A stretch of 55,994 bases of DNA, taken from Phascolarctobacterium sp. ET69 (GTDB lineage: Bacteria > Bacillota > Negativicutes > Acidaminococcales > Acidaminococcaceae). Made by a program: the position numbers and the translations under genes. The stretch spans positions 1-55,994 of the forward strand of contig NZ_JAMBLR010000008.1 in the NCBI RefSeq assembly GCF_023336935.1, written 5' to 3'. Every line of letters begins with the position of its first letter. Position 1 is the stretch's first letter. Shown in pieces: positions 20,518 to 25,650 of this stretch. The notes beneath the pieces are model-generated. The model worked only from the letters and a program-made list of their open reading frames with translations. It was not told the DNA's origin and ran no database searches.

Positions 20518-21522
20518 TTAATATTCGTCAAAAATTTCTTGTATTTTTTTTGTGTCTTTTGTACATGTAAGCGCAAGCTGCAATAAAATGCGCGCTTTTT
20601 GCGGATTTAAATTGCCTCCACAGATAAAGCCCGCCTCATCCCATTTAGGGTTAGCCGCTAAAACGCGCCCTTCACTGACGCGGGTACTGCGTACAACAGC
20701 AATGCCATGAGCCGCTGCCCGCATAAGCGCCTGCTCTGCACCGGCGTGGATACTGCCCATGCCGCTTCCAGCATAAACAAGCCCCTGCGCACCGGCTTTT
20801 ACAGCCGCTTCTATCAGTACGCCGTCATCATCACAGTGCGTATAAATAATATCTACCCGCGGTAAAATGTCATAATTTTTACCGGCAAAAGCAGATTGCT
20901 CTGTATGGCGTTTTTTCACCTGTGCTTCAAAATAAACTTTGCCGCCAGCTATTGTGCCAAGCTGTCCATATGGCTGTGCCTGAAAAGCCTCTACTTTAAA
21001 AGCACTGGTTTTTGTAGCATAACGCGCCGCCATAATAATATCATTCATTACTATCATTACGCCCTGCCCGTCAGCTTCACGGCAGGCCGCTGTTTTTACA
21101 GCATTAAGCAAATCCAAAGGCCCGTCCGCGCTGATAGCTGTTGCCGGACGCATAGCGCCTGTAAGAACGAGCGGCTTGCTGCCTTTAACAGTAAGATTTA
21201 AAAAATAGGCAGTTTCTTCCAGTGTATCCGTTCCATGTGTAATTACAATTCCGTCTACACTTTCATCTGCCATCAGCTCATTGCAGCGCGCAGCAAGTTT
21301 AAACCATAAATCGCTTGTTATATTGCAGCTGTCAATATTCGCAAGCTGCTCGCTGCTTACCGCTGCAATTTCCGCAAGCTGCGGCACGGCATCAATCAGG
21401 CTTTGTACGCTTAACGCCCCGGCGGTATAGCCGGTAAGTTTGCCGGCGCTTGCCGCACTGCCGGCAATAGTGCCTCCTGTAGCCAAAATTTTAATATGAG
21501 GCCAGCCTTGTTTATGCTGCAT
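20518..21522 (-). CDS. L-asparaginase
   Basis: A 334-residue asparaginase. The N-terminal ILATGGTIAGS holds the first catalytic threonine, and GIVITHGTDTLEETAYFL holds the second threonine-aspartate pair. It hydrolyses asparagine to aspartate and ammonia. No signal peptide is evident, so I expect a cytoplasmic enzyme. The ATG at 21522 is favoured because AAAGGCAGG stands in front of it. Confidence 0.92.
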   Translation of the reverse strand: MQHKQGWPHIKILATGGTIAGSAASAGKLTGYTAGALSVQSLIDAVPQLAEIAAVSSEQLANIDSCNITSDLWFKLAARCNELMADESVDGIVITHGTDTLEETAYFLNLTVKGSKPLVLTGAMRPATAISADGPLDLLNAVKTAACREADGQGVMIVMNDIIMAARYATKTSAFKVEAFQAQPYGQLGTIAGGKVYFEAQVKKRHTEQSAFAGKNYDILPRVDIIYTHCDDDGVLIEAAVKAGAQGLVYAGSGMGSIHAGAEQALMRAAAHGIAVVRSTRVSEGRVLAANPKWDEAGFICGGNLNPQKARILLQLALTCTKDTKKIQEIFDEY

Positions 21523-22501
21523 TTTGTACCTGCCTTTCTTCAACAAAAGTATTTATGCGCAGTCCAACATTCTGCTGCAAATTGCGGTAAAAAAACTGAT
21601 AATCATATAAATGGTAAATACCATCGGTAAAAATGGACAGCACCGGCGGATACTGCTTTTTATCAATGTCTGTAACTTTCAGTACGCCGCGTTCCGTATC
21701 TATGCAGCACCCTGTAAGCTGCGGCACTTCGCGCTTAATGCTGCCGCTGTAATCGGTAAAACATACGCCTGAGTTCAGCGCTTTATCAGCCATTGTGCCG
21801 TCCGTACGCCAGTTAAGAGGATTAATGCAGAAACTTTTTTCGCCATGCGGCACCATCAGTGAAGATGTAACCTCCGGCGCTTCGCTGTTAAACATAATCA
21901 CCGTACCCAAATCATCAGCACTCTGTGCCGGGCGGATATACTGATACTGCTTCGCCTCCTGCGGAGTAAAACGCCAGCCAATAGCATAGCAGGCAACCAT
22001 ATTATTTTTAACAAAATCCGTGTTGCCAAATTCTTTTAAAAGCCGCAGGCACATTTCCGCCCCCTGCGAAAACCCTGCAAGCACAAACGGCCTGCCGTTG
22101 TTTTCGTGCTGCATATAATATACAAAGGCCGCATGTACATCTTTATAGGCAAGGTTAAAATAAGGCTCTGCCTCGTTTGCAGGCAAATCATAATCTGCCA
22201 GCACTGCCTGCCGGTAATACGGTGCATACATACGGCAATGCTGCTCATAAATGCCGCGCTCCATATTAAGTGCGCCGTAAAAATTCTTTTTCGCTTCGTT
22301 ATCGGCAAGGCTCATATTTTTATTGCCGCCCGTACCAAGGTCAACGGTAGGGCACACAATAAATAAATCAGACGGCTTGTTTTCGCCAACACGCCAGTAC
22401 GCCCAGCTGCCCGTGTCTGCATAATCAGGTTCCTGCGCCGATGCCAGGCTGCAAAACGCAGCCAGCACCAGCAGCAGCATTATTTTCATCAGCTTGTTCA
22501 T
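21512..22501 (-). CDS. DUF3089 family exported alpha/beta-hydrolase-like protein
   Basis: A 329-residue protein with a signal peptide (residues 1-22, ending SLASA). FVLAGFSQGAEMCLRLL contains the nucleophile-elbow G-x-S-x-G of alpha/beta hydrolases. The opening with YADTGSWAYWR and LFIVCPTVDLG fits the DUF3089 family. Substrate unknown, probably an ester or lipid outside the cytoplasm. Start and stop overlap its neighbours by a few bases, so it is translationally coupled in the operon. Confidence 0.72.
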   Translation of the reverse strand: MNKLMKIMLLLVLAAFCSLASAQEPDYADTGSWAYWRVGENKPSDLFIVCPTVDLGTGGNKNMSLADNEAKKNFYGALNMERGIYEQHCRMYAPYYRQAVLADYDLPANEAEPYFNLAYKDVHAAFVYYMQHENNGRPFVLAGFSQGAEMCLRLLKEFGNTDFVKNNMVACYAIGWRFTPQEAKQYQYIRPAQSADDLGTVIMFNSEAPEVTSSLMVPHGEKSFCINPLNWRTDGTMADKALNSGVCFTDYSGSIKREVPQLTGCCIDTERGVLKVTDIDKKQYPPVLSIFTDGIYHLYDYQFFYRNLQQNVGLRINTFVEERQVQNAA

Positions 22502-23679
22502 TTGGCATCACTGTTTAAATAATCGTAAGCAAACTGCGCATAAATACCGGCGCCGTATTTTAACTGGTCCTCATCTACCGCAAATTTGGGGTGGTGATGC
22601 ACGCAGTTCAGCCCTTTGGCAAGGTTGCGCACGCCGATAAAGCCATACACGCCTTTGGTTTTTTCCATAAATACGGAGAAATCTTCTGCGCCAGTCATTT
22701 TATCCAAATGGCTCAGGCAGCCTTCGCCCATAATTTTTACGGCTGCCTTCCGGGCAATTCCGTTTAAATCATGGTGTTCGTTAATAAGCGGCGCAGGGCC
22801 GAAGAAATAGGTGCTGCTAACTTCGCAGCCATATGTAAGCGCGGCTTTTTTGGCAATATCATCGATAAGCTGCGGCATGCCTTTGCGGAATTCTTTGTTA
22901 AAAGTTCTTACGGTGCCGACAAGCTCTGTTTTAGCGGCAATGACGGCATCACCGCTGCCGCCGTTCATCATGCCGGTTGTTACAACAAGAGTGTTTTCCG
23001 GGTTGTTAACACGGCTTACAAGGCTTTGCAGTGCCATAACAACGGCTGCCGCTGCAAGTACGGCATCGCTGCCCTGCTGCGGCTTGTCTGCCGGTGCTTC
23101 TTTGCCGGTTACGGTAATGGTAAAGCGGTCGCTGCAAGCCATACGCTCGCCATCTTCAAAATTTACTTTGCCGCTGTCCATCAAAGCCCATACATGCTGC
23201 CCAAAAACGGCGTCCACATCGTCAAGGCAGCCCTTTTCAACATAATGGCGCGATTCTGTCCCAATTTCTTCCGCCATCTGGAATAAAAGTTTTACCGTTC
23301 CGCGCAGCTTATTTTTATTCGCCGCCAGCATTTTACCGGCAGCCAGCAGCATTGCCGTATGGCAGTCGTGCCCGCAGGCATGCATAACGCCATCGTTCTG
23401 CGAGCAGAAGCCGCAGTCGTTTTCTTCCTGTATCGGCAGCGCGTCGATATCTGCGCGCAGCATTACCGTGCGTCCGGGCTGCTTTCCGCGGATAATGCCG
23501 ACGCAGCCGGTAATATCGTCAAAAACCTGCACTTCAATGCCGAAGGATTTCAGTTCGTTTACAATATGTTCCGTTGTTTTATATTCTTTGGTGCCAAGTT
23601 CCGGATGGGCATGCAGCCAGCGGCGCTGCTCTAAAATATAGCTTTCTTCTTTTAAGGCAAGTTCTTTAAAGTTCATCAT
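22498..23679 (-). CDS. M20 family amidohydrolase, lid-domain His replaced by Pro
   Basis: A 393-residue M20D-type peptidase/amidohydrolase (hippurate-hydrolase or AbgB-like). Metal-binding segments are visible: MLRADIDALP (71-82), HACGHDCH (100-107), QMAEE (134-138), GQHVW (160-164) and TGAEDFSVF near the C-terminus. The lid/dimerisation domain spans about residues 184-295. Its first strand reads TVTGKEAPADKPQQGSDA. Family members usually have Gly-His-Ala at the place of Ala195-Pro196-Ala197, so the interface histidine is missing. The gene overlaps the preceding lid-domain gene by four bases (ATGA) and lies beside an AbgT-type transporter, suggesting hydrolysis of an imported N-acyl or aminobenzoyl amino acid. 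Confidence 0.88.
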   Translation of the reverse strand: MMNFKELALKEESYILEQRRWLHAHPELGTKEYKTTEHIVNELKSFGIEVQVFDDITGCVGIIRGKQPGRTVMLRADIDALPIQEENDCGFCSQNDGVMHACGHDCHTAMLLAAGKMLAANKNKLRGTVKLLFQMAEEIGTESRHYVEKGCLDDVDAVFGQHVWALMDSGKVNFEDGERMACSDRFTITVTGKEAPADKPQQGSDAVLAAAAVVMALQSLVSRVNNPENTLVVTTGMMNGGSGDAVIAAKTELVGTVRTFNKEFRKGMPQLIDDIAKKAALTYGCEVSSTYFFGPAPLINEHHDLNGIARKAAVKIMGEGCLSHLDKMTGAEDFSVFMEKTKGVYGFIGVRNLAKGLNCVHHHPKFAVDEDQLKYGAGIYAQFAYDYLNSDAK

Positions 23680-24041
23680 GCCTCACCTCCGTTTTTCTGC
23701 ACTTGGCCGAATTCAACTTCTGCCGTACAGCCAAATGCTGCGGCTGTGCTTTGGGCAATTGCCGTAAGGCCGGGCTGCGCGGCTTTAAGGTTTTCTTCAT
23801 CCCCGGCATATAAATAAGCCGTCATTTTTACTAAATCGGTAATAATGTTAAACTGCGTGCCGCCGTTAACGCCGCTTACTGTAAACACCAGCGGCTTAAG
23901 CGGATTGTTTAAACGGCTTACAAGAGCCTGCGCGTTTAAAATAAAAGACGATGCCGCCACAATAGCGTCTTTGCCTAAATGCGGCGTAGAGCCATGCGCG
24001 GAACTGCCATGAACGGAAATATTAATTTTAGAATAGTACAT
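23676..24041 (-). CDS. Stand-alone M20 lid/dimerisation domain
   Basis: A 121-residue protein that corresponds only to the lid (dimerisation) domain of M20 peptidases. It starts INISVHGSSAHGSTPHLG and shares QALVSRLNNP with the neighbouring full-length enzyme (QSLVSRVNNP). It lacks all metal ligands of the catalytic domain. It keeps the family's lid histidine (residue 16), which the neighbour has lost. It has its own AGGAG seven bases before the ATG and an intact frame, and it carries the ribosome site of the next gene. It may be a relic of a second amidohydrolase (compare E. coli AbgA/AbgB) or a working subunit. Confidence 0.75.
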   Translation of the reverse strand: MYYSKINISVHGSSAHGSTPHLGKDAIVAASSFILNAQALVSRLNNPLKPLVFTVSGVNGGTQFNIITDLVKMTAYLYAGDEENLKAAQPGLTAIAQSTAAAFGCTAEVEFGQVQKNGGEA

Positions 24042-24053
24042 AGCCTTACTCCT

Positions 24054-24083
24054 TATAAAAGCGGCTGCCCTTTAAGCAGCCGC
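24054..24083 (-). terminator. Terminator after the AbgT-type transporter gene
   Basis: GCGGCTGC (24061-24068) and GCAGCCGC (24076-24083) pair around seven bases, followed by TTTTAT on the minus strand. Read-through would be needed to express the lid-domain gene from the same transcript, since no separate promoter is visible after it. Confidence 0.8.
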
Positions 24084-24102: not shown

Positions 24103-25650
24103 TCAGTTAAGGAAAATGCCGCCGCCCGGGCCAAGAGGAATATCAAGGAAAATCCATACCAGAAGCTGGATAATCCAGATAACCGTAAAAGTAACGGAAA
24201 ACGGCACCATGTTGGCGATAACGGAACCAAGCCCCATTTCCGGCGCGTACCTGCGTACAAAGCCCAAAATAACCGGGCAGTACGGGAACAGCGGCGACAG
24301 CGGGTTCGTAATGGAATCGCCTATGCGGTAAGAAACCTGCGTAACGGCAGGGTCAAATCCCATCAGCATCAGCATCGGCACAAAAATCGGCGCCAGAATT
24401 GCCCATTTTGCGGAAGCAGAACCGATAAGAATGTTAACAAGGCACGATACAAAAATAAGGCCTATCAGAAGCGGCGCACCGGTAAATTCCATTGCCTTTA
24501 AAGCTTCCGCGCCTTTAATTGCCATTACAATGCCCAAATTGCTCCATGCAAAATAGCTGGTAAACTGAGCGATAAAAAAGCACATAAAAATGTAACCGGC
24601 CATATCTTTAAAGCCAAGAGTTATATCGGCAAACAAATCGCGGTCATTTTTGTATTTGCCGCAGCCAAAGCCATAGCAGGCACCAACAACAAACAGCGCA
24701 ACGGTAACCGTTAAAATAATGCCGTTCATAAACGGAGAACCGTTAGTCATAACGGAATGTGTTTTGGGATCTGCCAGAAGCGGGTCATCACCTATGCAGG
24801 CGGCAACAAGCGCAATTACAAAAATTACAAGTCCGATAACAGCCCATTTTAAGCCGCGCTTCTGTGCCTCGGTAATCTGCCCTTCCGATTCGTCAAAATT
24901 ATATTTTAATAAATCTTCTTTGGTTGTCGGGAAACGTTTTACCAGGAATTTTTCCGTCAGCAGCGTACCAAAAACAGCAAGCAAAATACAGGATACAATT
25001 AAAAAATACCAGTTAATGGCCATAGTTGCCTGATAGTTAGGGTCAATCATGCGTGCCGCGCTTTCGGTAAAGCCGTAAGCCAGAGCGTCCGTCATGCCAA
25101 GCATAATATTGGCACTAAAACCGCCTGCGCAGCCGGCGTAGGCAACAATCATGCCCAAAACAGGGCTGCGCCCCATGCCCATATAAATAACTGCTGCCAG
25201 CGGCGGCATAACAATATAACCGGCGTCGCCCGCAAGGTTAGCGTTAATTGCAACAAAAAGAATGGCAAACGTTACCATCCACGATTTGGCATCGCCCATA
25301 ACCTGTTTCATCATGGTTACAAGGAACCCGCTCTTTTCTGCAACAGCTGCGCCGATAATGCATACCATTACCATGCCCAGCGGCGCAAAATTTGAATAGT
25401 TGGCAACGGCCTTGCTGTACATATCACGGAAACCATCTTTAGTTAAAAGATTTACCACCTGAATGGTTTTGCCGGTACCAGGATGCACAGCACCATAACC
25501 AATGCTTCCCAAAACAGCAGAAAGAATTACAACCACAACAGCCAGAATAATGAACAGGCTGACAGGGTCCGGCATGGCATTGCCGATTTTTTCAATAAAG
25601 TCCATCGCTTTATCGAAGAAACCTTTTTGTTTTACTTCTGCTTTTGCCAT
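24103..25650 (-). CDS. AbgT family transporter
   Basis: A 515-residue inner-membrane protein with about 12 hydrophobic segments. Family features include MPDPVSLFIILAVVV near the N-terminus, NANLAGDAGYIVMPPLAAVIY, the SASAKWAILAPIFVPM segment and GDSITNPLSPLFPY near the C-terminus. E. coli AbgT imports p-aminobenzoyl-glutamate; other members export sulfonamides. The M20 genes downstream support import of an amidohydrolase substrate. RBS AGGTGAGGA lies before the ATG. Confidence 0.9.
   Translation of the reverse strand: MAKAEVKQKGFFDKAMDFIEKIGNAMPDPVSLFIILAVVVVILSAVLGSIGYGAVHPGTGKTIQVVNLLTKDGFRDMYSKAVANYSNFAPLGMVMVCIIGAAVAEKSGFLVTMMKQVMGDAKSWMVTFAILFVAINANLAGDAGYIVMPPLAAVIYMGMGRSPVLGMIVAYAGCAGGFSANIMLGMTDALAYGFTESAARMIDPNYQATMAINWYFLIVSCILLAVFGTLLTEKFLVKRFPTTKEDLLKYNFDESEGQITEAQKRGLKWAVIGLVIFVIALVAACIGDDPLLADPKTHSVMTNGSPFMNGIILTVTVALFVVGACYGFGCGKYKNDRDLFADITLGFKDMAGYIFMCFFIAQFTSYFAWSNLGIVMAIKGAEALKAMEFTGAPLLIGLIFVSCLVNILIGSASAKWAILAPIFVPMLMLMGFDPAVTQVSYRIGDSITNPLSPLFPYCPVILGFVRRYAPEMGLGSVIANMVPFSVTFTVIWIIQLLVWIFLDIPLGPGGGIFLN

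Follow-up and report, generated by a model that had tools for sequence, protein, structure and literature searches.

A stand-alone M20 lid protein encoded beside a full-length M20D enzyme without the lid histidine: a putative two-subunit amidohydrolase with a single active site

The window analysed here is a 55,994 nt stretch of Phascolarctobacterium sp. ET69 (contig NZ_JAMBLR010000008.1, positions 1 to 55,994), and our subject is a pair of overlapping minus-strand genes within it that encode an isolated lid domain of the M20 peptidases and a full-length M20D amidohydrolase. The upstream gene of the cluster (24103..25650, −) encodes an AbgT-family transporter (PF03806, 566 bits), in agreement with the AbgT-like neighbour described in a first-pass annotation of this DNA; the protein scored under the cutoffs both of TIGR00819 (452.9 bits, cutoff 753.55) and of the curated equivalog of E. 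coli AbgT (400.6 bits, cutoff 864). Only 61 bp separate the abgT stop from the start of the lid gene (23676..24041, −), so that no remnant of a catalytic domain lies between them. The lid gene carries a probable ribosome-binding site, read from the sequence as TAAGGAG (24049..24055, −), 7 nt before its ATG, and encodes a 121 aa protein whose sole Pfam match is PF07687 M20_dimer (43.6 bits, cutoff 21), and which its conservation in the genus and the lid tree identify as a reduced subunit A. Its stop codon and the start codon of the next gene share an ATGA (23676..23679, −), and a probable ribosome-binding site of the latter (GGAGGTG, 23684..23690, −), also a reading of the sequence, lies within the end of the lid gene. 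This second gene (22498..23679, −) encodes subunit B, a 393 aa protein that matches PF01546 (125.4 bits, cutoff 24.6) and PF07687 (26.2 bits) and passes the TIGR01891 amidohydrolase cutoff (343 versus 153.75 bits). The two open reading frames (ORFs) and their overlap were present as first annotated.

The AlphaFold2 model of the lid alone had a predicted local distance difference test (pLDDT) value of 90.8; its first Foldseek matches were the lids of 4ewt and 6slf (template modelling scores by query of 0.80–0.83), and its comparison with M20 lids gave Z scores from 17.0 to 12.2 over the 50 rows listed. The model predicts that the 121 aa protein has the entire fold of an M20 lid. The model of B had a pLDDT of 94.1 overall, with blocks down to 66 within the lid region, and its best solved matches were 4ewt, the nearest, 1ysj and 1xmb.

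Sequence alignment placed the lid residues of the two proteins in three columns, which in E. coli DapE are occupied by His193, Asn244 and Arg257; we read these as the H. influenzae residues His194, Asn245 and Arg258 at an offset of one. In the His column, shared by the lid His of solved M20D enzymes, E. coli DapE, AbgA and AbgB, B has Pro196 (23092..23094, −) and the lid protein has His16 (23994..23996, −), the exchange on which the first-pass annotation had based its proposal of a split enzyme. That the lid supplies the missing His agrees with these alignments, but the His is not the only residue concerned, as the Asn of the FNxI motif has also been lost from B (Ala245, 22945..22947, −) and kept in the lid (Asn65, 23847..23849, −). 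His16 and Asn65 are therefore proposed as the catalytic His and the substrate-binding Asn acting in trans. At the third column, B retains Arg258 (22906..22908, −), proposed as the lid Arg acting in cis and present in 12/12 partner enzymes, and the lid protein has Tyr78 (23808..23810, −) at the place of the cis Arg of the erased site.

The same residues were then compared in an alignment of 12 lid-only systems, 17 intact A/B pairs and 14 other M20 proteins. Both the lid His and the Asn of the FNxI motif were present in all 12 lid-only proteins, and the lid Arg was lost in 10 and present in two (G010 and G014). The partner B proteins had the lid His in 0/12 cases, with Pro in nine and Leu, Asn and Asp in one each, a variety that fits the expectation of lost constraint. 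The lid Asn was lost from 11 of the 12 partners, and the aligned Asn of the remaining one (G029) is doubtful because the motif surrounding it is gone; all nine catalytic and metal positions were complete in 12/12. Every A and every B of the 17 intact pairs had His, Asn and Arg as well as the nine catalytic positions, and the three lid residues were present in 14/14 of the other M20 proteins. Thus a His-less enzyme co-occurs with an isolated lid in 12/12 systems and in 0/17 intact pairs, a residue pattern that supports the split-enzyme proposal. Before counting, we set aside L036 and L044 (B cut by a contig end), L051 (broken frames), L046, L126, L055–L060 (distant single proteins) and further full-length proteins in the wider-search loci, and dropped as duplicates L035 (match rows the same as for G042), L029 (G233), L041 (G007), L030 (G010) and the G001–G005 loci (L024–L028).

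As a wider control, 178 loci were surveyed, excluding two E. coli stretches; leaving out ORFs at locus edges, below 340 aa or below 200 bits, 209 full-length ORFs were obtained, of which 93 were distinct. The His-Asn-Arg set was carried by 80 of the 93, and the remaining 13 were the 12 partners of lid-only proteins and one protein of locus L046. The latter (L046:5443-6660) is a 405 aa full-length M20D homologue with HATGRD in place of HACGHD, by which two metal-site residues are lost, and with Tyr at the lid His; neither a lid partner nor a second M20 gene was detected at its locus. It was thus the only His-less enzyme without a lid among the 93, its metal ligands being lost too, and its sequence suggests a pseudoenzyme over its whole length. 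None of the 17 aligned pairs contained an intermediate in the form of a full-length A whose catalytic domain is dead. L046 was considered as such an intermediate, since its metal ligands are lost, and was rejected on its Tyr at the lid His and the lack of a detected second M20 gene. A putative membrane protein follows at L046 (8625-10049); it may resemble NhaC-type antiporters.

The gene order of relatives points to the origin of the lid gene. Other genera have the genes in the order abgT, A, B, with A and B both full-length M20D proteins of about 390–400 aa encoded by overlapping or nearly touching genes, and the isolated lid occupies the slot of the full-length A; we therefore regard the lid as a remnant of A. 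An isolated lid was found in 6/6 genomes of the window's genus (g1, Phascolarctobacterium-like), the other five being 76–77% identical to that of the window. Across 59 genomes of the family (E ≤ 1e-15), lid-only genes were present in g1 (6 genomes), g2 (G006, G007, G010 and G014) and g11 (G029), and full-length A in g2 (G011 and G012) and g16 (G042). Genus g2, Acidaminococcus, thus holds both states, and its lids are 53–55% identical to the window lid. One more lid-only case (G153) came from another family of the class, in which it was 1 of 28 genomes matched at E ≤ 1e-28. Counted as open frames of 127–155 aa among matches at E ≤ 1e-27, lid-only genes were found in 12/380 genomes of the class, and this recurrence, together with the 6/6 genomes of the genus, indicates that the isolated lid is not a chance product. 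When the mixed alignment A3 was used as the query against these 380 genomes, full-length proteins dominated the matches listed, which gave no information on lid-only genes. The genomes are a sample, many of them metagenome-assembled, and G029 is 63% complete.

The lid gene adjoins that of a His-less B in all 12 systems, the two genes overlapping in g1 and g2 and being spaced by 17 bp in G029 and 24 bp in G153. An AbgT-family gene lies upstream in 11/12 systems, window included, with a gap to the lid that is narrowest in G014, at about 13 bp, and widest in G010, at nearly 600 bp; the exception is G029. There, a 419 aa, apparently membrane-bound protein (L085:4790-6046) with no Pfam match at E ≤ 1 stands in the place of AbgT. 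Searches beyond the class covered the class of G251 (Flavonifractor; 391 genomes at E ≤ 1e-30, four with matches, all full-length frames), the order of G252 (295 genomes at E ≤ 1e-30, two with matches, full-length) and the class of G254 (Fusobacteriaceae; 98 genomes at E ≤ 1e-25, 19 with matches, frames of at least 353 aa); they showed no lid-only gene, but do not establish absence because the thresholds were strict and the scored candidates limited in number.

Phylogenetic analysis agreed with this descent. A tree of the catalytic columns (60 rows) recovered a core B clade of 23 rows (support 100/99) and an A clade of 12 rows (99/93), with the G029 enzyme outside the core B clade, among Fusobacteriaceae pairs. 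In the tree of the lid (108 columns), built without seven distant outgroups and six near-identical genus rows (three lids and three B), the A clade (95/93) took in 8/9 lid-only rows and the B clade (97/94) took in 8/9 partner lids; neither row of G029 was placed. A single origin of all 12 systems was rejected, as constraining the 12 partner enzymes to one clade gave p = 0.00085 in the approximately unbiased (AU) test, which requires at least two origins and allows more. One clade of the 11 partners without G029 was not rejected (AU p = 0.336), nor was one of the ten of g1 and g2 (p = 0.234).

The lid gene is under purifying selection. Its ratio of nonsynonymous to synonymous substitution rates (dN/dS), calculated by the method of Nei and Gojobori (NG86), was 0.13–0.30, compared with 0.07–0.15 for B, values that are rough because some dS are near or above 1. 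No broken lid frame or internal stop was found in the window or the nine relatives checked; a disrupted lid gene in close relatives, which the first-pass annotation had named as evidence against its proposal, was thus not seen there. Gene structure, ancestry, residue pattern and selection can thus be read from the sequences themselves.

Published work on M20 enzymes provides a frame for this residue pattern. In carboxypeptidase G2 (CPG2), the Arg of one lid is described as meeting the His and Asn of the lid of the other monomer (PMC6271292), and docking to DapE has Arg258 of chain A acting with Asn244/245 and His194 of chain B (PMC5919655; PMC10815964), the lid His being reported to form a transient oxyanion hole with a zinc ion (PMC10815964). 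Aminoacylase-1 with His206Ala was nearly inactive, as cited in PMC4012986, which also gives the activity of DapE as abolished on removal of the dimerisation domain. By analogy, we infer that M20D dimers share this cis/trans arrangement. Each active site of an ancestral AB dimer would then draw its metal-binding catalytic domain and, in cis, its lid Arg from one subunit, while the lid of the other subunit would contribute His and Asn in trans. Applied to the two subunits, the CPG2 arrangement gives a site 1 to which B contributes its catalytic domain and lid Arg and lid A its His and Asn, and a site 2 in which these roles are exchanged, with catalytic domain and lid Arg from A and the other two residues from lid B. 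Site 2 would have been erased, with catalytic domain A gone, the His and Asn of lid B lost and the cis Arg of lid A mostly lost; its parts are missing in 12/12 (catalytic domain A), 12/12 (lid B His), 11/12 (lid B Asn) and 10/12 (lid A Arg) systems. Site 1 would have been kept whole: the free A lid would give His16 and Asn65, and B would give Arg258, the catalytic Glu and the metal ligands. The two proteins are encoded by overlapping genes, next to that of an AbgT-family transporter.

The joint residue pattern is what the erasure of one of the two AB active sites predicts, and to our knowledge there is no simpler account of it. We therefore consider it very likely that the product of the locus is an M20D metallo-amidohydrolase of two subunits and one active site, derived from an ordinary AB heterodimer. 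On the sequence pattern, a one-site heterodimer of the lid and B is the most likely form; the physical heterodimer, its stoichiometry, its activity and its substrate are what we infer from this pattern. E. coli AbgT imports p-aminobenzoyl-glutamate (PMC5082436), and the window enzyme likely serves to hydrolyse an N-acyl or aminobenzoyl amino acid after its import.

We weighed this against B working alone, as a homodimer or monomer whose chemistry dispenses with the lid His, the lid protein merely regulating or stabilising it. Such an enzyme has a precedent in PepD, which tolerates loss of the lid His (PMC6271292), and B, including its lid region, is predicted to fold despite the blocks of lower pLDDT noted above. 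The residues lost from B, however, stay in the lid (His in 12/12 and Asn in 11/12) across four kinds of His replacement; a pure regulator would not need an invariant His and Asn while the Arg is lost in 10/12; and DapE is described as inactive once its dimerisation domain is deleted (PMC4012986). This alternative is therefore unlikely in our view. It is very improbable that the lid protein works with a different M20 enzyme instead of B: the genome does encode two other M20D homologues (C2:189467-191814), but each keeps its own His, Asn and Arg and hence needs no donor, whereas the B adjacent to the lid does, and it is next to a His-less B that the lid lies in every system. As for a functionless, decaying gene, the alternative offered in the first-pass annotation, the lid is clearly the remnant of a full A subunit; yet its dN/dS, its unbroken frame, its own ribosome-binding site and clean start, its retention throughout the genus and in Acidaminococcus, and the occurrence of the lid-only state in at least two independent lines all speak against decay. 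The selection and the conservation over two genera contradict that alternative, and we reject a decaying fragment, to which we assign a negligible probability.

Several observations weigh against the one-site heterodimer. PepD with His219Ala kept activity, which shows that not all M20 enzymes need the lid His, although the three lid residues of PepD are described as arranged within one monomer, unlike those of CPG2 (both PMC6271292). The lids of G010 and G014 retain the Arg that the erased site would have used, B of G029 shows Asn at the aligned position, albeit within a motif that is otherwise lost, and L046 has lost the lid His with no lid partner, together with its metal ligands. Moreover, every lid-only case found belongs to one bacterial class, and because 11 of the 12 systems may share one origin, the independent evidence amounts to a minimum of two origins.

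Known systems resemble the proposed enzyme in part. E. coli AbgA/AbgB with AbgT, like the window, pairs two different M20 subunits next to an AbgT-family transporter gene, and its lid His, Asn and Arg lie in the same aligned places; but both subunits are full length (436 and 481 aa) and both have all three residues, whereas A of the window is a lid only. The first-pass annotation had cited AbgA/AbgB as a heterodimer; a two-subunit complex is indeed reported, but as an α2β2 heterotetramer, and its authors weighed one job for each subunit, although the homology spans both (PMC5082436). In the catalytic-column tree, the branches of AbgA and AbgB are very long and join neither the A clade nor the B clade. 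The M20D aminoacylases and peptidases (4ewt, YxeP 1ysj and Corynebacterium 6slf) have, as judged from the models, a fold common to the whole of B and to the lid, but they hold catalytic domain and lid in one polypeptide, in place of the two unequal proteins that would make up one site here; the Corynebacterium enzyme is reported as a homodimer (PMC11511702). DapE and CPG2, which indicate the trans (His and Asn) and cis (Arg) lid residues (PMC6271292; PMC5919655; PMC10815964), differ in being homodimers of full-length subunits. The trypanosome prozyme is like the proposed lid in that a catalytically dead paralogue activates its partner AdoMetDC (PMC5201418); it does so by relieving autoinhibition, whereas the lid of the window, a single domain, would donate catalytic residues.

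In searches of an open-access library, we found no description of a stand-alone M20 lid subunit. It appears that some gut bacteria have an enzyme of two parts, one of them reduced to a small lid protein from which the other borrows the active-site residues that it has itself lost; this suggests a way for an enzyme with two sites to be cut back to one. In broader terms, we think it likely that the lid has become a free-standing catalytic subunit and that, in two or more lines independently, one AB site was deleted piecewise, its catalytic domain as well as the lid residues serving it, so that what is left is an obligate heterodimer with one site and with its cis and trans residues sorted between two proteins. 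If so, these systems offer a natural version of a separation otherwise made by mutagenesis, sorting the residues of an M20 dimer by whether they serve their own or the other active site, and a route from a duplicated enzyme to an obligate one-site heterodimer. With a separable lid, a catalytic domain complete in all other respects could be given its His and Asn in trans, and the role of the lid His could be tested by mixing proteins. Annotation pipelines could mistake such a lid for a fragment.

Downstream of B, the next gene overlaps it by a further ATGA and encodes a DUF3089 protein (21512..22501, −; PF11288, 166 bits), whose start resembles a signal peptide, and is followed by a type II asparaginase gene (20518..21546, −; TIGR00520, 417.5 bits). 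The order abgT, lid, B, DUF3089, asparaginase was conserved in all five genus relatives read, and carbonic anhydrase came next after asparaginase in the four of them whose match was found. In one genus relative (genome G002), abgT (L026:304-1843) consists of two overlapping frames, and the lid and B genes that follow it are intact; the split is either a real lesion or an assembly error. In a Clostridia record (L051:3796-7780), AbgT, A and B each lie in two or three frames, which reflects either real decay or sequencing error. The record of L035 is titled Acholeplasmataceae bacterium, but its match rows are the same as those of G042 of the window's own family, and its title is probably wrong.

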